Shown: one piece after another, positions 5,858-21,540 of the stretch
Layout of the letters: the number at the start of each line of letters is the position of its first letter
Position numbering within the stretch: position 1 is the stretch's first letter
Source: Roseomonas sp.
Lineage (GTDB): Bacteria > Pseudomonadota > Alphaproteobacteria > Acetobacterales > Acetobacteraceae
Assembly: GCA_020249865.1 (NCBI GenBank)
Contig: JADCEV010000009.1
Location: 1 to 53,799, forward strand
Direction of reading: 5' to 3'
Length of the DNA stretch: 53,799 bases
Position numbers and translations under genes: made by a program
Notes under the pieces: generated by a model
Told to the model about the DNA's origin: nothing
What the model saw: only the letters and a program-made list of their open reading frames with translations
The model's database searches: none

Positions 5858-6798
5858 CTCGCACATTGCGCCTAGCCGGCGCCCAAATGGGGCCGAACCA
5901 AAAAGCCGATAGCCGCGAAGCGATCCTGGCGCGCATGATCGCCTTGTTGGAACAGGCCGCCGCCGCCGGCGCGAAGATGGTGGTGTTCCCGGAATTGCCG
6001 CTGACCACCTTCTTCCCGCGCTGGCTTTTTACCGATCAGGCGGAATTGGATTCTTATTTTGAACGCGAAATGCCCAATCCGCGCGTGCAGCCGCTGTTTG
6101 ATCGCGCCCGCGCACTCGGGGTTGGCTTTTATCTTGGCTATGCGGAACTGACGCCGCATGGCAAGCGCTACAATACGGCGATCACGGTCGGGCAGGATGG
6201 CAGCGTGCTTGGCAAATATCGCAAAATCCATCTGCCCGGCACGGTGGAACCGCGCGTTGGGGATCGCTTCCAGCAATTGGACAAGCGCTATTTCGAATAT
6301 GGTGATCTCGGCTTTCCCGCCTTTCGCGGCCCGGAAGCCTGGGGGCGGCCCGTGCTTGGCATGTTGATCTGCAATGACCGTCGCTGGCCGGAAGGTTGGC
6401 GCTGCTATGGCTTGCAGGGGATTGAGCTGATGCTGATTGGCTATAACTCCGCCGCCTATGATCCGATGGGCGGCGATAGCGAAGACCAGTCCTTGCGCAC
6501 CTTCCATTCCACCCTCGCCGTGCAGGGCAATGCCTATATGAATGCGACCTGGGCGATTTCGGTTGCCAAGGCGGGCGTGGAAGATGGCTCGGGCCTCATT
6601 GGTGGTTCGGTGATTGTGGACCCGAATGGCCGCGTGGTGGCGGAAGCCAAGACGCTGGGTGATGAGATCATTGTTGCCGATGTGGATTTTGATGCCTGCA
6701 AGCAGGGCAAGGAGAAGATGTTCAACTTCGCCGCCCATCGCCGCCCGCAATGGTATCGCGCCATCATTGACCAGGTGGGGGCGGTACCGCCGGCGTAA
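5854..6798 (+). CDS. Nitrilase-superfamily carbamoylase paralogue 1 (altered active site)
   Basis: A 314-residue carbon-nitrogen hydrolase close to bacterial N-carbamoyl-D-amino-acid amidohydrolases. The triad is present: E47 in VFPELPLTTFFPRW, K124 in GKYRKIHLPG and C173 in LICNDRRWPE. The arginine pair R176-R177, known in D-carbamoylases to hold the substrate carboxylate, is kept. Aligned without gaps to its neighbour at 6857, two conserved histidines are replaced: H130 by Thr (LPGTVE) and H141 by Gln (FQQLDKR). It probably acts on a carbamoyl or amide compound that differs from the canonical substrate (inference). It starts inside the Bug stop codon (ATGA). Confidence 0.88.
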   Translation: MTRTLRLAGAQMGPNQKADSREAILARMIALLEQAAAAGAKMVVFPELPLTTFFPRWLFTDQAELDSYFEREMPNPRVQPLFDRARALGVGFYLGYAELTPHGKRYNTAITVGQDGSVLGKYRKIHLPGTVEPRVGDRFQQLDKRYFEYGDLGFPAFRGPEAWGRPVLGMLICNDRRWPEGWRCYGLQGIELMLIGYNSAAYDPMGGDSEDQSLRTFHSTLAVQGNAYMNATWAISVAKAGVEDGSGLIGGSVIVDPNGRVVAEAKTLGDEIIVADVDFDACKQGKEKMFNFAAHRRPQWYRAIIDQVGAVPPA

Positions 6799-6856: not shown

Positions 6857-7819
6857 ATGACCCGTTCCCTTGTTCTGGCCGCCGCGCAGCTGGGCCCGAT
6901 CCAAAAGGCCGAAGGCCGCGATGTGGCGGTGGGGCGGATGATCCGCCTGATGGAAAAGGCGCATCAGCGCGGCGCGCAAGTCGTGGTCTTTCCTGAATTG
7001 GCGCTGACCACCTTCTTCCCGCGCTGGTATGAGGAAGATCTGGCCAACGCCGATCATTGGTATGAAGCGGCCCTTCCATCCAATGAAACCGCGCCACTAT
7101 TCGAAGCCGCACGCAAATACGGCATCGCCTTTCATCTGGGCTACGCCGAGAAAACGCCGGAAGGCAGGCGCTTCAATACCGCGGTCTTCGTGCTGCCCTC
7201 GGGCGAGATTGTGCTGAAATACCGCAAGGTGCATTTGCCGGGGCATAAGGAATTCGATCCCGTCCGCCATGTGCAGCATCTGGAAAAGCGTTATTTTGAG
7301 CCGGGCGATCTTGGCTTTCCGGTGATCCGCGCGCCGGTTGCCGGCCAGCCCGTCAATCTTGGCATGATGATTTGCAATGACCGCCGCTGGCCGGAAGCCT
7401 GGCGCGTGATGGGCTTGCAGCAGGTGGAATTGGTCATGCTCGGCTACAATACGCCGTCACTGAATATGGAAAATCGCGGCTTTGAGGCGCATCATTTGCG
7501 CGTTTTCCATAGCCACCTCTCCATCCAGTCCGGCTGCTATCAGAATTCCTGCTTTGCGGTCGCGACAGCCAAGGCGGGTACGGAAGACGGGCATGAGCTT
7601 TTCGGCCATTCCATCATCGTGAACCCGCAAGGGGAGATCATGGCGCAGGCGACAAGCTGGGATGATGAGTTGATCGTGGCCGAAGCCGATCTCGGCAAAT
7701 GCGAATTGGGCCGCAAGACAATTTTCGATTTCGCGCGCCATCGCCGGCCGGAACATTATGGCCGCATCGCCGAACAGGTGGGCAGCGTGGCGCCGGCGGA
7801 ATGGAAGGGCGGGGCTTAA
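6857..7819 (+). CDS. N-carbamoyl-D-amino-acid hydrolase (D-carbamoylase-like)
   Basis: A 320-residue nitrilase-superfamily enzyme that matches D-carbamoylases from memory in length and motifs: E47 in VFPELALTTFFPRW, K124 in KYRKVHLPGHKE, C173 in MICNDRRWPE. It also has the histidines of this enzyme at H130 (PGHKE) and H141 (QHLEKRYFEPGD), plus FHSHLSIQSG and a C-terminal RHRRPEHYGRIAEQ. The family hydrolyses N-carbamoyl-D-amino acids to the amino acid, CO2 and ammonia. With the hydantoinase-like gene upstream it would form the classic two-step hydantoin route. It is a tandem paralogue of the preceding gene and ends 2 bp from the convergent dehydrogenase gene. Confidence 0.92.
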   Translation: MTRSLVLAAAQLGPIQKAEGRDVAVGRMIRLMEKAHQRGAQVVVFPELALTTFFPRWYEEDLANADHWYEAALPSNETAPLFEAARKYGIAFHLGYAEKTPEGRRFNTAVFVLPSGEIVLKYRKVHLPGHKEFDPVRHVQHLEKRYFEPGDLGFPVIRAPVAGQPVNLGMMICNDRRWPEAWRVMGLQQVELVMLGYNTPSLNMENRGFEAHHLRVFHSHLSIQSGCYQNSCFAVATAKAGTEDGHELFGHSIIVNPQGEIMAQATSWDDELIVAEADLGKCELGRKTIFDFARHRRPEHYGRIAEQVGSVAPAEWKGGA

Positions 7820-13402: not shown

Positions 13403-13975
13403 TCAGCCCCTTCCCATGGCATAGAATTCGTCATTCGGGCGGAGATTGGTCACATTCGCCAGGCGGTTGGACATGCCGAAGAAGGCAGCGATGGCGGCGA
13501 TGTCCCAAATGGCCTCATCATCGAAACCCGCTGCGCGCAGCGCTTCGTGATCCGCATCATTCACTTCATTGGCGCGGTCAGTCACTTTAAGCGCAAATTC
13601 CAGCATGGCCTTCTGTTTCGCTGAGATATCGGCCTTGCGCCAATTGGCGGCGATCTGGTCCGCGATCAGGGCATTCTTGGCGCGGATACGCAGAATGGCG
13701 CCATGCGCCACCACGCAATATTGGCATTGATTGCGCGATGACACCGCGACCACGATCATCTCACGCTCCGCCTTGGAAAGCCCCTCGGCCTTGTCCATCA
13801 GCGTATCGTGATAGGCCATGAAGGCGCGGAATTCCGCCGGGCGATGCGCCAGCATCAGAAAGACATTCGGAATAAAGCCCGATTTTTCCTGCACTGTCAG
13901 GATGCGCGCGCGGATATCTTCCGGCAGGGCGGCGATATCGGGGATGGGGGTACGGGCGATGGGGGGCTTGGTCAT
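13403..13975 (-). CDS. AhpD-like/carboxymuconolactone decarboxylase-fold peroxidase-related protein
   Basis: A 190-residue protein of the AhpD/CMD fold, resembling the uncharacterised peroxidase-related enzymes. The redox signature is CQYCVVAHG, with C84, C87 and H91 arranged as in AhpD. The N-terminal IPNVFLMLAHRPAEFRAFMAYHDTLM is typical of the subgroup. AhpD-type proteins reduce peroxiredoxin partners, but no ahpC is nearby. It is first in the minus-strand run with the creatininase-like and hydratase-like genes. A protective role for that pathway is inference. The 254-bp upstream gap (13976-14229) shows no supported gene, only a weak AAGCGG/CCGCTT stem. Confidence 0.87.
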   Translation of the reverse strand: MTKPPIARTPIPDIAALPEDIRARILTVQEKSGFIPNVFLMLAHRPAEFRAFMAYHDTLMDKAEGLSKAEREMIVVAVSSRNQCQYCVVAHGAILRIRAKNALIADQIAANWRKADISAKQKAMLEFALKVTDRANEVNDADHEALRAAGFDDEAIWDIAAIAAFFGMSNRLANVTNLRPNDEFYAMGRG

Positions 13976-14229
13976 TTCGGGCCTATCCTTGCAGCCCCTG
14001 GAAGGGATGCTTCAAGCTGCATGCCCCATCGCCAGCGAATTCCAGCGGCGGGCCAATCATTGAAGGACAAGAGTAAGTGAGCATGTCCTGCACCCGTCAA
14101 GCCCTGAGGTGTTTGGCCCAATGAGGTTCGGCCAAGCGGAAGGCCGCTTGTCGCCTGGGGCGCTTCGATGATAGCGCTGATCCCAATCATTTCATTCCTG
14201 ACGAAAAGCCCGCGGAACCCCTTCAGCCC

Positions 14230-15198
14230 ATGACCCTTTCGGGATTTGTGTGCCTAGAAACGGATGGCCCCCTGCCGATTTTTCTCGGCAAAGCTGGGCA
14301 GGAAGTGGCATCGGCCAGACAGCAAAGGATATTGCTGATTGGTGGCTGCGGTTATGTCGGATCCTATTTGTTTCAACGCCTTCTTGCCCATGGTTACGGG
14401 GTCAGCGTTTGCGACAAGCTGACCCGTGGCAATCCCCTGGCGCTGCCGATCAAGGCGCTTGATTACAATGATCTGACGCCGGAGAGCCTGGCACCATTCG
14501 ATGCCGTGTTGTGGTTTGCCGGCCATTCCAGCGTTGGCCAATCCATCACCGATCCGCAGGGCGCGATCGCCAATAACTGCCTCAATCTTTTTTCCTTGGC
14601 GAAAAAACTGCCGACCAAGACCAGGCTGATCTATGCCTCAACGGCAAGCCTTTATCCGTTGGATGACGCCGGCGCCCCGATCAGCGAGGCGTCCCTGATA
14701 CGCATACCCGCGCAGAATGCCTATGATATTTCGAAATTCGCCTTTGATTATCTTGCTGAACATTTTCTTGACCGCTTCCATGGCCTTCGGATGGGTACCG
14801 TTTCCGGCCATAGCCCCAATCTGCGCCCGGAATTGATCTTCAATGCGATGAACCTTTCTGCCTTCAAGACCGGCACGGTGCGGGTGAAGAATGCCGCTGC
14901 CTTTCGGACCATCCTGTTCTTGAGCGATCTTTGGACACTGGTTGACCATTTGATGCGCCATGATGCGCCAAGCGGCCTTTACAATGCGGGCAGCATCACC
15001 GCTTCCATCGGTGAATTCGGCCAACAGATCGCCAAAGCCTGGGGCGCTGCCGTGATTGACGAGGGGGAGAGCCCCACCTATTCCTTCAAGCTTGATTGCA
15101 GCAAGGCCGAGGCGCTTTGTGGCCCAATGCGGGGGAGCGAGGCGCTTTTGGCTGAATGCCGCGCTTTCATTGCGGCGCAAGGATTGGACAGGCCGTAA
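14230..15198 (+). CDS. NAD-dependent epimerase/dehydratase (extended SDR) for sugar
   Basis: A 322-residue extended short-chain dehydrogenase. The dinucleotide motif is LLIGGCGYVGSY (about residues 35-46), there is a catalytic YDISK (Y165, K169) and an upstream Ser/Thr-rich YASTASLY strand. Such proteins epimerise, dehydrate or reduce nucleotide sugars. The stop codon abuts the ATG of the methyltransferase gene, so the three genes 14230-17262 form one operon for a modified sugar in a surface glycan. The true start is uncertain: the first ATG lacks a clear ribosome-binding site and gives about 30 residues before the Rossmann strand, so an internal GTG could be used. Confidence 0.85.
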   Translation: MTLSGFVCLETDGPLPIFLGKAGQEVASARQQRILLIGGCGYVGSYLFQRLLAHGYGVSVCDKLTRGNPLALPIKALDYNDLTPESLAPFDAVLWFAGHSSVGQSITDPQGAIANNCLNLFSLAKKLPTKTRLIYASTASLYPLDDAGAPISEASLIRIPAQNAYDISKFAFDYLAEHFLDRFHGLRMGTVSGHSPNLRPELIFNAMNLSAFKTGTVRVKNAAAFRTILFLSDLWTLVDHLMRHDAPSGLYNAGSITASIGEFGQQIAKAWGAAVIDEGESPTYSFKLDCSKAEALCGPMRGSEALLAECRAFIAAQGLDRP

Positions 15199-16452
15199 AT
15201 GACCCACCGATTTCTGACCGAATGCCTTTGTTGTGCTTCGTCAGATTTGCGCTGCGTTATTGATCTTGGCGTCCAGCCCCCTGCCAATAGCTATACATCG
15301 TCACCGCGAGAAGAATTGGCGCGCTACCCGCTGGGCCTGAACCTCTGTGCTTCCTGCTGGCATGCACAATTGACCTTTTGCGTGGATCGCCGCGCGATCT
15401 TCGATCATTACGCATATGTCAGCGGCACTTCCGGCACGCTTGATCGTTTCTTTCGCTGGTTCGGTGAAAGGCTTTCCGAATGCTATCCCAGCCAGTCAAG
15501 AGTGCTCGAGCTTGCTGCGAATGATGGATCGCTGCTCACGCATCTGAAGTCTCGGCATTTTGAAGTTGCGGGGGTGGATCCGGCGCGCAATATCGTTGAT
15601 CCGGCCAAGGCGCGCGGGCTGCCGATTACCTGCGGCTATTGGCCCGATGTTCAACATGAGGTTGAGGGGAAATTCGACGTCATCATTTGCATGAATGTGG
15701 TCGCCCATGTGGATGATCCGCTCAGCTTCGTCGCGGCATGCCGGGGGCGGCTCAATCCGGGTGGCGTGCTGATCATTCAGCCGTCACAGGCGCGCATGTT
15801 CGAAAACGGTGAATTCGATACGATTTATCACGAGCATATTTCCTTCTTCAATATGCGGTCCATGGCGAAGCTTGCGGAGAATGCGGGGCTCCATCTTTAC
15901 GGTGCAGCACTGGTTGCCGTGCATGGCGATAGCCCTGTCTATTTCCTGGGGCTGCCGGATAGCCCGCCGCCCGTCGAAAGGTTGATTGCTGCCTTCAGCG
16001 CGGGAGAATTCGGCATTCGCGAAAACCTTCCACGATACGAAGAAAAGATCGGGCTTTACGAGGCGCAAACCTATGTGCGTTTCGAACGCAAGGCCAAAGA
16101 AGTGCTGCATGACCTGGTGAAGACGGTCGAGGATTTTCGTGCCCAGGGTCACAAGATCGCCTTTGTTGGCGCAGCGGCCAAGGCGCTTACCGTCATCAAT
16201 GCCTGTGGCGTTAGGCCGGATCATTTCCTGGATGAGGCGCCGATGAAGATCGGGAAATACGCGCCAGGTATCGGCACGCTGATTGAACGCCTTGATACCG
16301 CGAAGTCCTTCACCGAACCGACGCTATTTGTCATCACTGCCTGGAATTTCAGGAAGGAACTGAAGGGCAAGCTGCTGGCTTACGGCGTGCCGGCGGGCTC
16401 GGCCTTCTATTCCTATTTTCCGCAGGCCGAATTGACCCGGGCAGAGGCTTGA
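15199..16452 (+). CDS. Three-domain sugar C-methyltransferase-like SAM enzyme
   Basis: A 417-residue methyltransferase with the architecture of TylC3/NovU-type sugar C-methyltransferases. An N-terminal zinc motif has C9, C12, C50 and C53, the central SAM fold has VLELAANDGSLL (about 102-113), the family hallmark YHEHISFF lies at 210-217, and a C-terminal Rossmann-like domain carries FVGAAAKALT. Known members methylate keto-deoxysugars at carbon. It begins immediately after the stop of the epimerase gene and ends immediately before the glycosyltransferase ATG. The operon therefore probably makes and attaches a branched or C-methylated sugar, or methylates a related acceptor (inference). Confidence 0.88.
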   Translation: MTHRFLTECLCCASSDLRCVIDLGVQPPANSYTSSPREELARYPLGLNLCASCWHAQLTFCVDRRAIFDHYAYVSGTSGTLDRFFRWFGERLSECYPSQSRVLELAANDGSLLTHLKSRHFEVAGVDPARNIVDPAKARGLPITCGYWPDVQHEVEGKFDVIICMNVVAHVDDPLSFVAACRGRLNPGGVLIIQPSQARMFENGEFDTIYHEHISFFNMRSMAKLAENAGLHLYGAALVAVHGDSPVYFLGLPDSPPPVERLIAAFSAGEFGIRENLPRYEEKIGLYEAQTYVRFERKAKEVLHDLVKTVEDFRAQGHKIAFVGAAAKALTVINACGVRPDHFLDEAPMKIGKYAPGIGTLIERLDTAKSFTEPTLFVITAWNFRKELKGKLLAYGVPAGSAFYSYFPQAELTRAEA

Positions 16453-17262
16453 ATGCGTTCGGTCATCTGTCATTTCTTCAATGAGGCCTATCTCCTGCCC
16501 TGGTGGCTGAAACATCATGTGCCGATCTTTGATCACGGGGTGATGATAGATCACGGGTCAACCGATGGTTCCGCCGATATCATTCGCCATTACGCGCCGC
16601 ATTGGCGGCTTGTTCATACGCGCCTCATGAAATTCAATGTTGCGCTCAATGATTTGGAAGTGATGCGCTATGAGGAGGAACTGCCAGGCTGGAAGATTGC
16701 ACTCAATGTCACGGAATTCCTGATCAACGCCATCCCGCTGCAGGATATCGAAAAATACTGCGTCGAGAAGGAATTCGATGGTTTCGGCTGTTCGGGTTTT
16801 GTGGCGGTGGACCTTGAGCCAGAGGAATTGCCACGCCATGAGAAAAACCTGCTACTGCAGAAGCCCTGGGCGATTGATGACAACAAGATCACCGGGGCGC
16901 AGCAAAGGGTCGATGCCGGGCTGACCTCAATCCCTGAGAGGAATCGTTTCTACCACCGGGATCACGTTGGCATGTATCTTCCAGGCCGGCATCGGTCCTT
17001 TCATCCGGCGTCAACCCGGCGAAACCCCAATGTGCTTGTGGTGCATTTTCGCTATTCGCCGTGGAACGCCGAAGCACTGAAACGCAAGATGCAGATACTG
17101 GATCGGGTTGATCCCAAGGATTTGGCGCGCGGTTGGGGCATCCAGCACGCCAGCAAGGCGGATCAATTGGAACGTGAGCGCCAGAAAGTCATGCCACTGG
17201 CGGAAGATTTGCGCGAACATCCCATCGCGTCACGTAGTGCCGCGTTCAAAAAAACGCTTTGA
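16453..17262 (+). CDS. Glycosyltransferase family 2-like protein
   Basis: A 269-residue protein of the Glyco_tranf_2_4 (GT2/GT92-like) type. The N-terminus reads CHFFNEAYLLPWWLKHH, then IDHGSTDGSADIIRHYAP, where D33 and D38 occupy the place of the nucleotide-sugar and metal-binding acidic residues. It ends in a basic region without membrane segments. It is the third of three abutting genes and probably transfers the sugar made or modified upstream. Downstream, 36 bp separate its stop from the first copy of the lepA-derived repeat at 17299. No terminator hairpin is visible in that gap. Confidence 0.82.
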   Translation: MRSVICHFFNEAYLLPWWLKHHVPIFDHGVMIDHGSTDGSADIIRHYAPHWRLVHTRLMKFNVALNDLEVMRYEEELPGWKIALNVTEFLINAIPLQDIEKYCVEKEFDGFGCSGFVAVDLEPEELPRHEKNLLLQKPWAIDDNKITGAQQRVDAGLTSIPERNRFYHRDHVGMYLPGRHRSFHPASTRRNPNVLVVHFRYSPWNAEALKRKMQILDRVDPKDLARGWGIQHASKADQLERERQKVMPLAEDLREHPIASRSAAFKKTL

Positions 17263-17298
17263 CGGGACTTTTCAATCGCAATTCCGCGCCGAATTCTC

Positions 17299-17337
17299 TC
17301 AGCTATCCATCTTCAGCGCGGCAATGAAGGCGCTTTG
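17299..17337. repeat. 39-bp direct repeat, distal copy of the lepA 3' end
   Basis: Exact match over 39 bases to 18472-18510, starting TCAGCTATCCATC and ending GGCGCTTTG. Flanking bases differ at both ends. It is a displaced copy of the last 13 codons of lepA including its stop (read on the minus strand). Within it AGCGC (17315-17319) and GCGCT (17330-17334) form a small dyad with a 10-base spacer, loosely like a recombinase core site. Confidence 0.95.
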
Positions 17338-17369
17338 GCAAGGTTATTGAAGCTTTCCAATTATCTTCT

Positions 17370-18392
17370 TTATTCTTTCACTGAGGTCGGAACAGCTTGG
17401 GGTGTTGAAACCAGGAGTACCACATCTTCGGTACGAAAGCGTATCGTACGCGACGATTTTGCAAGATAAGTAAAGGTAGCGGTCTGATAATTGAGCGAGC
17501 CTTCCAACATTGCGTCTGCGGACAATGCCAAGGGTGCTGGAAGCGCTCTCCGCGAGACTTCGGATAATGCCAATGCCACAGGTTGGGGTTTTGCTCCCCC
17601 GAATTTGGCCTCGATGTTATTGAATATCAGAGCGCCAAACGCAGATGATACTATTATGAAGAAGGTTAAGGCGTACAAGGAGTGAAAAGAAAAATTGTCC
17701 AAAGATGGGACATACCTATTTATTTTATCAAGAACCACATTTCCTACTACGAACATTATAACAAATACCACAAACACAGTATTTGTGGTTCCGGATTTCA
17801 GAGTCGCATAGAAGCAAATGATAGCAGTAGTCATGCCTATCAATTTCAGCAATTCAGTTATTTTTGGGAAATTTACGTCAAAATCCGTAATATCGATGAT
17901 GTAAAATACTCCAAATATTACAAACGGGGCCCATCCAATGGCAAAAAAAACCTGACGGTCGATCGCAATCATTGTGTACAGCAAAGTCGAAAGACAGAGA
18001 TGGTAGGCGACGACGATCAAGGAATTGATAAAAAACAAGAATTTCCAGAAAGATGCCTTGGGAAACAACTGCGCGCGCTCAAGATCGCGTGCCAACCACT
18101 TCGGTCCGAGAAACAGGGAGCGACCAGCAAAAAGATAAAAGCAGATCAAGAAAAATAGAAAGTGCGCACTCGCAATAAAATAATGCATATTGATAAACTC
18201 AAAATCAATGATTCCGTGCGTCGCAAGATTACTGTTCGTGACAAGGAACCCTGTTATATAAAAAATACCGGCAATAAATGGATACGCTGCTGCGCCAAGA
18301 TGTTTAAAAATACCTTTTGACGATTCTCCTAACGGAGAAAGAACGTTCGGATCCGCCGCGGTTACCACGGTTGATTCGTCCTTTGCGTTCAT
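17370..18392 (-). CDS. Unknown multi-spanning membrane protein, AT-rich, probable cargo gene
   Basis: A 340-residue protein of unrecognised family. About seven hydrophobic segments lie near residues 33-53, 70-90, 116-143, 148-168, 181-199, 205-222 and 238-258, followed by a hydrophilic C-terminal tail of about 80 residues that opens with KFGGAKPQPVALALSE and has beta-rich TATFTYLAKSSRTIRFR and TEDVVLLVST. The coding sequence is far more AT-rich than its neighbours, and it lies alone between the two lepA-end repeats, both signs of transfer. The ATG at 18392 follows AAGGGGAAGAG. An upstream ATG at 18446 with GAAGG is the alternative and would add 18 residues. Defence or stress cargo is a guess only. 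Confidence 0.8.
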   Translation of the reverse strand: MNAKDESTVVTAADPNVLSPLGESSKGIFKHLGAAAYPFIAGIFYITGFLVTNSNLATHGIIDFEFINMHYFIASAHFLFFLICFYLFAGRSLFLGPKWLARDLERAQLFPKASFWKFLFFINSLIVVAYHLCLSTLLYTMIAIDRQVFFAIGWAPFVIFGVFYIIDITDFDVNFPKITELLKLIGMTTAIICFYATLKSGTTNTVFVVFVIMFVVGNVVLDKINRYVPSLDNFSFHSLYALTFFIIVSSAFGALIFNNIEAKFGGAKPQPVALALSEVSRRALPAPLALSADAMLEGSLNYQTATFTYLAKSSRTIRFRTEDVVLLVSTPQAVPTSVKE

Positions 18393-18471
18393 CTCTTCCC
18401 CTTTGATGGTAACGGCATGCGATCCCAGTTTGGAATGGCTGAACATGGATGCCTTCTACAGTTACCCAATA

Positions 18472-18510
18472 TCAGCTATCCATCTTCAGCGCGGCAATGA
18501 AGGCGCTTTG
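18472..18510. repeat. 39-bp direct repeat, native copy at the lepA 3' end
   Basis: The native copy comprises the final codons and TGA stop of lepA (read on the minus strand). It is identical to 17299-17337, which lies 1173 bp away. The dyad AGCGC/GCGCT falls at 18488-18492 and 18503-18507. Confidence 0.95.
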
Positions 18511-20277
18511 CGGGATTTCCACCTTGCCGAATTGCCGCATGCGCTTCTTGCCTTCCTTCTGCTTTTCCAGAAGCTTGCGCTTGCGGGTGATGTCACCGCC
18601 GTAACACTTCGCCGTCACATCCTTGGAGAGCGCCGAGATCGTCTCACGCGCAATCACGCGCCCGCCAATCGCCGCCTGGATCGGGATTTTGAACAATTGG
18701 CGCGGAATCAGATCCTTCAATTTTTCGCAAATCTGCCGCCCGCGGCGTTCCGCCTGGCTGCGATGCGCCATGAAGGCCAGCGCATCCACAGGTTCGTTAT
18801 TCACCAGGATGGAAATCTTCACCAGATCGCCTTCGTCATAGCCATCCATCTGATAATCGAAGGAAGCATAGCCGCGTGAGACTGACTTCAGCCGATCATA
18901 GAAATCGAACACCACCTCATTCAACGGTATGCGATAGACCAGCATGGCCCGCGACCCGACATAGGTCAGTTCCACCTGCTGCCCGCGGCGTTCGTTGCAA
19001 AGGGCCAGCACGGCGCCGAGGTAATCATCGGGCAGCATGATGGTCGCCTTGATCCAGGGTTCTTCAATGTGATCAAGCACGCTGCCATCGGGCATATCGG
19101 CAGGGTTGTGCAATTCGAATATTTCGCCATTCGTCTTGTGCACCTTGTACACAACCGAAGGCGCGGTCGCGATCAGATCGAGATCGAATTCGCGCGAAAG
19201 CCGTTCCTGCACGATTTCCAAATGCAGAAGGCCGAGGAAGCCGCAGCGAAAGCCGAAGCCAAGCGCGGCGCTGGTTTCCGGTTCATAATGGAAGGACGCG
19301 TCATTCAGCCGGAGCTTGCCAAGGGATTCACGCAGCTTTTCGAAATCATCTGCATCCACCGGGTAAAGCCCGCACCACACCACGGGGATGGAGGGTTTGA
19401 AGCCGGCCAAAGCCTCTGCCGCCGGATTGCGATCATCCGTGATGGTATCGCCAACATTGGTATCGGCCACGGTTTTGATCGCAGCCGTCACATAGCCCAT
19501 CTCTCCAGGCCCAAGGCTTTCCACCGGCACCAGCTTCGGCGTGAAGACGCCGACCTGTTCAATGGTATGCACGGAACCGGATGACATCATGCGAATGCGC
19601 TGACCCTTGCGCAAATGGCCATCCTTCACACGCACCAGGATAATGACTCCAAGATAGGCATCATACCAGCTATCCACCAGCAAGGCCTTTGTGGTGGCGG
19701 CGGCATCGCCTTTCGGCGGCGGCAGGCGTTCCACAATCGCTTCCAGCACGCCTTCGATATTGAGCCCCGTCTTGGCGCTGATCATCACCGCGTCCGAAGC
19801 ATCAAGCCCGATCACATCTTCGATCTGCTGCTTCACGCGATCAGGCTCTGCCGCCGGCAGGTCAATCTTGTTCAGCACCGGCACAATCTCATGCCCTGCA
19901 TCAATCGCCTGATAGACATTGGCAAGTGTCTGCGCCTCAACCCCCTGGGACGCATCCACCACCAGAAGCGAACCCTCACAGGCGGCAAGCGATCGGCTGA
20001 CTTCATAGGCGAAGTCCACATGGCCGGGCGTGTCCATCAAATTCAGCACATAGATTTTACCATCCTTGGCAGGATAGGTCAGGCGAACGGTCTGTGCCTT
20101 GATGGAGATGCCGCGCTCCCGCTCCAGCTCCATATTATCCAGGACCTGTTCCTTCATTTCGCGCGCGGAAAGCGCCCCGGTGGCCTGGATCAGCCTATCG
20201 GCAAGCGTGGATTTGCCATGATCAATATGGGCAATGATCGAGAAATTGCGGATCAGCGAAAGCGGCGTGTCAGTCAT
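18472..20277 (-). CDS. lepA: Elongation factor 4 (LepA)
   Basis: A 601-residue translational GTPase of normal LepA length. The P-loop [10 protein letters not shown] is at about 16-25, GISI and DTPGHVDF are switch regions, NKID is the guanine-specificity loop, and the LepA-specific C-terminal domain ends with [17 protein letters not shown] and [16 protein letters not shown]4 binds ribosomes and back-translocates or aids assembly under stress. An upstream in-frame extension to 20355 is rejected, because [20 protein letters not shown] at 20277 is the canonical start. The MFS gene lies upstream on the same strand with 87 bp between. The last 13 codons and stop form the native copy of the direct repeat. 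Confidence 0.98.
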
Positions 20278-20364
20278 GATGGTCCCGGGGGTGCCGGCGC
20301 GGAGTAGCGCTGGCCTTTTCAAGGGCGGAGATAAGGCAGCAGGGCCGGAAGTCAAACACCCGCC

Positions 20365-21540
20365 TTAACCTGGGCGGGGTAGCAAGGGGGCTAACCTCCA
20401 CATTGCCCAGGCGCCAAGCAGCGGCCCGATGCCCAGCAGCGCAAAACCCGCCGACATGCCAAGCATTTCCATGGCCCGCGGCAAGGCCCAGATCGTGCCC
20501 GCGGTCAGCAAAAAGCCAAGCGCGGTCTGCACCGTCAGCATGGTGCCGACGTAATCGGGGGGCGAAAGGCTCACGATACAGGCGGAAAACTGCGCGGAAT
20601 CGGCCACCACGGTCAGCCCCCAGATGAAGGCAATCGCCAGCGCCAGCATGGGCCAGGCGCTGGCCGGGCCGATCAGCAGCGCGCAGGAACCCGAAGCCAG
20701 CATGCAGGCGCCGGCCACCTTGGCGCGATTCCAGCGATCAGCCGCCAGCCCCGCCAGGACGCAGCCCAAGGCGCCGGCCGCCACCACGGCGAAAACCCAG
20801 GGACCAATGGCGGGGCTTTCCAGCACAGCGGCCAGGAAAACCCCAATCCAGGCCCACATGGCATAGAGTTCCCACATATGGCCAAGATAGCCGAGATTGG
20901 CCAAGCGTAGCCCCCTGTTGCGCCAGGCTTCCAGCATCTGCGCCGGGCGAAAGGGCGGCCGGGCGCCAAGCAAAGGCCCCGGCTGAAACCCCAAGATCAG
21001 CGCCCCGCCAAGGGCGGCCAGCACCCCTGCCCCGACATAGGCCGCGCGCCAATCCAAGGCCCCAAACAAGGATGGCAGCGCATGGGGCAGCGCGGAACCG
21101 AGCGTCACCGCGCCCACCACCAGCCCAATCAGCAGGCCCAAATCCCCCTTGGCCCAGGAAGCGGCGAGCTTCATGCCAACCGGATAAACCCCCGCCATGG
21201 CCGCACCTGCGATGAAACGGAGCATCAGCGCCGCGCCCCCCGCCGGTGCCACCATTATTTGCGCCAGCGTCGCCCCCGCCGCCAGCAAGGCGCAGCCCAG
21301 AAACAACCAGCGCGCCGGCCAACGATCCGCCAATGAGAAAACCGCACTCACCAGCGTGCCAAAGACAAAGCCCAATTGGACAGAGGCCGTCAGCCAGGCG
21401 GCGCGGCTTGGCGTGATCAGCCCTGCGGCCAATAGCGCCGGCACTGCGGCGGTACCGGCAAACCAGACGGAGAGCGTCAGCACAATCGCGCCCACCAACA
21501 GCGCCATATTGCGGCGCTTGCTGCCGGGTGCGGTGATCAT
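20365..21540 (-). CDS. MFS transporter
   Basis: A 391-residue, strongly hydrophobic protein with roughly twelve predicted membrane helices, consistent with the major facilitator superfamily (CynX/NimT-like or YbfB-like appearance). Recognisable MFS features are the FSLADRWPARWLF loop after helix 2 and GLAADRWNRAKVAG after the seventh or eighth helix. The substrate is unknown. The ATG at 21540 is preferred; an open frame continues upstream to 21687 without further membrane segments. It is divergent from the ABC-transporter/Hyu operon starting at 21715 and co-directional with lepA. Opposite-strand ORFs here are shadows of the GC-rich frame. Confidence 0.87.
   Translation of the reverse strand: MITAPGSKRRNMALLVGAIVLTLSVWFAGTAAVPALLAAGLITPSRAAWLTASVQLGFVFGTLVSAVFSLADRWPARWLFLGCALLAAGATLAQIMVAPAGGAALMLRFIAGAAMAGVYPVGMKLAASWAKGDLGLLIGLVVGAVTLGSALPHALPSLFGALDWRAAYVGAGVLAALGGALILGFQPGPLLGARPPFRPAQMLEAWRNRGLRLANLGYLGHMWELYAMWAWIGVFLAAVLESPAIGPWVFAVVAAGALGCVLAGLAADRWNRAKVAGACMLASGSCALLIGPASAWPMLALAIAFIWGLTVVADSAQFSACIVSLSPPDYVGTMLTVQTALGFLLTAGTIWALPRAMEMLGMSAGFALLGIGPLLGAWAMWRLAPLLPRPG

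Follow-up and report, generated by a model that had tools for sequence, protein, structure and literature searches.

At one place in the genome of a Roseomonas sp. (Acetobacteraceae), the 3' end of lepA stands twice in the same direction, with an AT-rich stretch that encodes a membrane protein between the two copies (Table 1). The locus raises the question of whether this stretch was inserted there and, if so, by which route. The DNA analysed, called the window below, is the whole 53,799-nucleotide stretch of contig JADCEV010000009.1 (assembly GCA_020249865.1). An earlier note on this DNA had read the locus as site-specific integration into the lepA 3' end, with that end regenerated.

Table 1. 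Features of the lepA 3' junction (window positions)
Feature	Position	Strand	Basis
lepA (elongation factor 4), insertion target, frame intact	18472..20277	-	LepA_C 1.9e-50, GTP_EFTU 2.6e-54; ATG at 20277 chosen by eye
Proximal repeat copy, functional lepA end (12 codons + stop)	18472..18510	-	Exact repeat; normal lepA upstream, in continuity with relatives
Inserted AT-rich DNA, 1134 bp	17338..18471	-	GC 43.0% vs 61.5% in the window; missing from relatives' sites
Cargo gene, 340 aa (more likely start), several predicted transmembrane segments, frame intact	17370..18392	-	ORF; hydropathy; no Pfam or NCBIfam match
Distal repeat copy, lacking the remainder of lepA, carrying the ancestral right flank	17299..17337	-	Exact repeat; sequence beyond it matches lepA-downstream sequence in G033, G034, G007 and G027 (G027 more diverged)
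Glycosyltransferase family 2-like gene, neighbour at the ancestral lepA 3' junction	16453..17262	+	PF13704 1.8e-06; follows lepA in G033, G034 and G027; partial in G007

The two copies agree at 39/39 bases, in direct orientation and with a spacing of 1173 bp, where about 3e-14 exact direct repeats of that length would be expected by chance from the size and composition of the window. The earlier note was right that the lepA end had been copied exactly and that the flanks differ on either side of the copies, and it miscounted the content, which is 12 sense codons plus TGA and not 13 codons plus stop. No third repeat-like place was found in the window at up to 15/39 mismatches. The exact 21-base lepA end occurs twice in the genome, both times inside the window, and a search of the genome with the lepA gene revealed one extra copy of its end, the sole one among the 5 of 110 first-look candidates that were scored. 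The window's 39 bases differ from those of both nearest sisters (G020 and G033) at 3/39 positions, while its two copies are identical to each other; an apparent excess of divergence over the sequence just upstream (for G033, 3/39 against 7/361) had a P of 0.04 and was too weak to use. The only other exact direct repeat of at least 25 bp in the window is 26 bp long (5999-6024 and 7002-7027) and is shared by two adjacent, similar genes, nitrilase-like by eye, which look like an old tandem gene duplication.

The inserted unit amounts to 1173 bp, that is, one 39-bp copy and the 1134 bp between the copies. This intervening DNA is AT-rich, as had first been noticed (Table 1), and no 1134-bp stretch in the window is lower in GC than the one that begins at 17339. 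It holds one long open reading frame on the lepA strand, which spans 17370-18446 when counted from the first ATG; the later ATG is the more likely start because GGGGAAGAG, ribosome-binding-like by eye, precedes it. The predicted protein has hydropathy peaks from residue 33 to residue 257, and the description of a single membrane protein gene held up, as the opposite strand has only two small overlapping frames (64 and 158 aa), for which Pfam gave nothing above noise (best E 0.1). The cargo gene is foreign-looking by composition: its GC3 is 45% against 63-70% in four neighbouring genes, and its codon score is 0.415 against 0.64-0.76 in six neighbouring genes, four of which were used to build the index. 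The gene is probably expressed by read-through from lepA, since it lies on the same strand and 79 bases past the lepA stop; promoter and terminator scans returned 4 hits (2.3 expected) and 2 hits (2.2 expected), respectively.

Searches for relatives of the cargo, in genome samples that overlap among relatives, family, class and phylum, returned little. At a threshold of E 0.001, no match to the protein turned up in 98 other genomes (34 of the same genus) or in the 384 other genomes of the class sample; the family sample gave one match among 396 others at E <=0.01 (G836, E 0.0058, 70 residues). In the phylum sample, 57/397 other genomes matched at E <=1 (best 0.001), with 18-50% identity over at most 168 residues. 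Within a small preselected set of open reading frames from 19 phylum-sample loci, the best scores (phmmer 9.4e-6, blastp 1.8e-4) both belonged to L066, with 30% identity over 120 residues. We judge these matches to be transmembrane noise, with a distant relation possible. Pfam and NCBIfam gave no match, PADLOC and PHROGs yielded just short stretches at E 0.23 and 0.27, and PDB just E 0.19; no match at E <=1 was found among plasmids and phages, and no relative among viral contigs and genome contigs. At the DNA level, the insert had no match among plasmids, and its best match in the fetched loci of relatives covered 28 bases (E 0.04).

Whether the unit is an insertion was addressed with same-genus relatives, in which the lepA 3' side could be read at 19 loci (20 regions were fetched, one without a lepA end). 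The alignment of this flank, which the earlier note had asked for, revealed empty sites: in G033, G034, G007 and G027, a single lepA end is followed directly, with no insert, by the flank that lies beyond the distal copy in the window and by the glycosyltransferase gene. When the window's two flanks were joined and compared with G033, 390/400 bases aligned on the left and 638/695 on the right. The support from G007 is a match over 219 of the 355 bases present on its contig, and the spacer after lepA is more diverged in G027. A fifth relative, G020, keeps the empty-site flank, and its glycosyltransferase gene is internally deleted, with remnants of both gene ends left (L033). By lepA without its last 39 bases, G020 (95.7%) and G033 (95.4%) are the nearest relatives. 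In 5/19 relatives (L035, L037, L039, L042 and L045), no more than about 1 kb of contig follows lepA, which may reflect strain variation at the junction.

None of the 19 loci has a second copy of the lepA end at up to 11/39 mismatches within the 339 to 17237 bases available downstream of each. Across the family, a 21-base lepA-end pattern matched 146/397 genomes, and two copies occurred only in the window's own genome, a count that informs on those 146 genomes and not on the other 251. A scan of genome contigs with the pattern gave 16 stretches with one match each, all from metagenome-assembled genomes (MAGs) labelled Roseomonas sp. (9), Alphaproteobacteria bacterium (3), uncultured Rhodospirillales bacterium (2) and Asaia bogorensis (2); they coincide with the contigs of 16 relatives and add no independent cases. 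A gene order conserved across the family with both copies, which the earlier note had set against its own reading, is thus ruled out, as relatives with the same flanking gene carry one copy and no insert. Other inserts at lepA 3' ends, which that note had suggested looking for, were seen neither at the 19 loci nor in the 145 other family genomes that the pattern matched. From the one-copy, insert-free sites of the relatives it therefore follows that a 1173-bp foreign-looking piece was inserted between lepA and the glycosyltransferase gene.

An assembly artefact, or a circle misplaced in the contig, could mimic such an insertion. The assembly is a draft of 154 contigs, all 16 named same-genus records found are MAGs, and contigs of five of the 19 relatives break off about 1 kb or less after lepA. 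Such a join could, however, arise only if the cargo had a lepA end on its flanks or formed a circle with one, and completeness and contamination of the genome are rated at 100% and 0.19%, so that we consider this explanation very unlikely.

How the piece arrived is less certain. Integrases that use gene ends recombine a circle with the chromosome by a single crossover, which gives this anatomy and regenerates the target gene. Our preferred reading, to which we assign a probability of about 0.48, is that a circular, att-bearing cargo recombined into the lepA 3' end and left an integrase-free unit. A circle with the 39-bp lepA end as an attP-like site would have undergone a single crossover with the chromosomal, attB-like lepA 3' end, catalysed by a site-specific recombinase whose gene lies elsewhere or has since disappeared. 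The product would read lepA, repeat, cargo, repeat and old flank, with lepA regenerated. In its present state, the unit would be att-flanked and of CIME type, immobile unless a lepA-targeting recombinase arrives. We favour this att-type integration because the exact 39-bp repeat terminates precisely at the lepA stop codon, because relatives have one-copy sites without the insert, and because the composition is foreign and the cargo is missing from 98 relatives and 384 class genomes.

Further support comes from known systems, as lepA is a prophage target and CIMEs are a recognised class. According to the excerpted text of PMC5704250, CIMEs (cis-mobilizable elements) are decayed ICEs or IMEs that have lost their integration and transfer genes and keep attL and attR. 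The present unit is similar in that a direct repeat bounds the cargo on each side at a conserved gene's 3' end, one repeat restoring that end, with an empty site in relatives and no integration or transfer genes seen inside; it differs in being only 1.17 kb long with one gene, and no parental ICE or IME and no lepA integrase was found in the searched data. Prophages of Latilactobacillus curvatus with group VII integrases integrate in lepA (PMC10688831, excerpt), a likeness at the level of the gene, and they differ as integrase-carrying phages of a Firmicute host. In the partly covered literature, lepA was found as an integration site only in this one Firmicute, as a prophage site, and the excerpt of PMC4494060 uses lepA as a marker gene only. 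The targeting of lepA and integrase-free, att-flanked units are thus already known. The small size and the single gene without known relatives are unusual here, and the mechanism is inferred.

Several observations weaken att-type integration. No recombinase family matched inside the insert, as the earlier note had also held, and of the four tyrosine recombinase (PF00589) matches in the genome, two (open frames of 327 and 346 aa) were taken as Xer by size only, while the other two adjoin tRNA genes on other contigs (L096 9321-10541 and L097 8581-9921). The tRNA genes beside these two integrases are tRNA-Leu(taa) and tRNA-Asn(gtt), respectively, the latter followed by a gene that looks primase-like by eye. 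The serine-recombinase family has two matches in the genome. On lepA contigs of the genus, many of them short, the nearest PF00589 among the matches listed was 44 kb away (G011), which also counts against this reading. Core sites of tyrosine recombinases consist of inverted-repeat arms around a short spacer; the best dyad in the 39-bp repeat scored 5, a value reached by 617/2000 shuffles.

In viral contigs, a 30-base pattern had 0 matches. Two 21-base lepA-end patterns had one match each in viral contigs (L099 and L100), which we dismissed as chance since the translation is not that of lepA. Fifteen phage records carry a lepA C-terminus; 12 of these are unannotated, and the one inspected had nothing annotated. 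No related ICE, IME or phage integrase at the same att site emerged, either by the viral-contig patterns or, across the genus, among the matches listed for the 44 kb around lepA. The lack of a second lepA-end duplication (1/146 genomes, 0/19 loci) also tells against att-type integration, as does the identity of the two copies even though the sisters differ at 3/39 bases, because an attP that had travelled would be expected to differ from the host copy more often; exact identity suits every model with a locally made copy. Of what the earlier note had proposed, the insertion with regeneration of the lepA end is borne out by the empty sites, and site-specific recombination is not established, with no attC-like motif, terminal inverted repeat or dyad above shuffles, no recombinase match inside and no second case in the loci and genomes covered. 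A bolder reading, in which a minimal 1.17-kb non-autonomous cassette (the membrane protein gene and one 39-bp lepA end) would enter and leave the lepA 3' end with a recombinase acting in trans, we regard as unlikely.

The surroundings of lepA bear on a different route. Several gene orders follow lepA across the 19 loci, where genes were named by eye on the basis of protein starts or DNA matches, with the exception of a glycosyltransferase-methyltransferase-epimerase module, which was named by family search. This module follows lepA in the window, G034 and G027, as far as the contigs reach in G033 and G007, and in altered form in G020. A gene like that at 13403-13975 of the window follows lepA in G015, G009, G030, G028 and G008, an ABC-transporter-like set in G025, G018 and G026, and another gene set common to both in G023 and G002; in G004, G010, G005 and G024, the neighbours are different or unread. 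Flanks diverge between the neighbour groups soon after the lepA TGA. The glycosyltransferase module (13990-17298), located between lepA and the gene at 13403-13975, occurs in some members of the genus and not in others. No Rfam RNA was found in 16000-20500. Moreover, lepA itself probably recombined here in its last third, as this part resembles G033 and G020 much more closely than the preceding two thirds do: outside the repeat, the last 583 alignment columns hold 11 (G033) and 12 (G020) differences, and the first 1200 hold 70 and 65. The drop is absent against G005, G025 and G007.

These observations suit homology-anchored illegitimate recombination, in which linear DNA carrying lepA and the cargo would have paired by homology inside lepA and been joined illegitimately at its far end to the host lepA, 39 bases short of the end of that gene. 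On this view, the distal copy would be no more than a stump of the old lepA, which accounts for a repeat that stops at the stop codon and for the missing recombinase, none being needed. This explanation carries real weight because lepA neighbours vary, which makes lepA-anchored swaps seem common, swaps that leave no second lepA end at any of the 19 loci, and because lepA shows a recombination sign that fits it better than att-type integration. The route itself, in which one end integrates by homology and the other is joined illegitimately, is documented (PMC3240628, excerpt); an exact 39-bp duplication would not be a required outcome of it. Against it, the donor with lepA and cargo is unseen (the cargo occurs in 0/34 other same-genus genomes), and the recombined part of lepA resembles G020 and G033, both without the insert. 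The donor would also have to equal the host over 39 bases, yet the nearest sisters differ at 3 of them. We regard this route as the main rival of att-type integration and as less likely than it.

Two further explanations start from the ends of the insert. A foreign fragment may have been captured at a staggered break whose 39-nt overhangs were filled in, giving a target-site duplication without a transposase. Capture would predict identical copies whatever the source and ends without terminal inverted repeats; it would leave to luck that the duplication ends at the stop codon, with 36 bp from the distal stop to the neighbouring gene, and no Ku was found in the genome, which makes classical end-joining unlikely, in a search whose control matched 1/14 control genomes. 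We consider such capture quite improbable. The other explanation, an integron-type cassette or a transposon relic, draws on the presence of one gene of about 1 kb on the same strand as the gene upstream. Integron cassettes carry an attC with GTTRRRY and RYYYAAC boxes, and neither box occurs near the junctions (17240-17420 and 18400-18560). Relics of insertion sequences have terminal inverted repeats and a short target duplication; here, only 4/20 end bases pair as an inverted repeat, and, to our knowledge, a target duplication of 39 bp is far too long for any transposon. A cassette or relic is therefore hardly credible.

Overall, the 3' end of lepA, a conserved translation gene, has received a clean insertion for which empty sites are available, and the membrane protein that it encodes is intact and lacks recognised relatives. 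Should the unit prove mobile, it would represent a single-gene cargo unit of very small size whose att sites are gene ends; otherwise, it would show in well-resolved form how foreign genes gather on the 3' side of a conserved gene.
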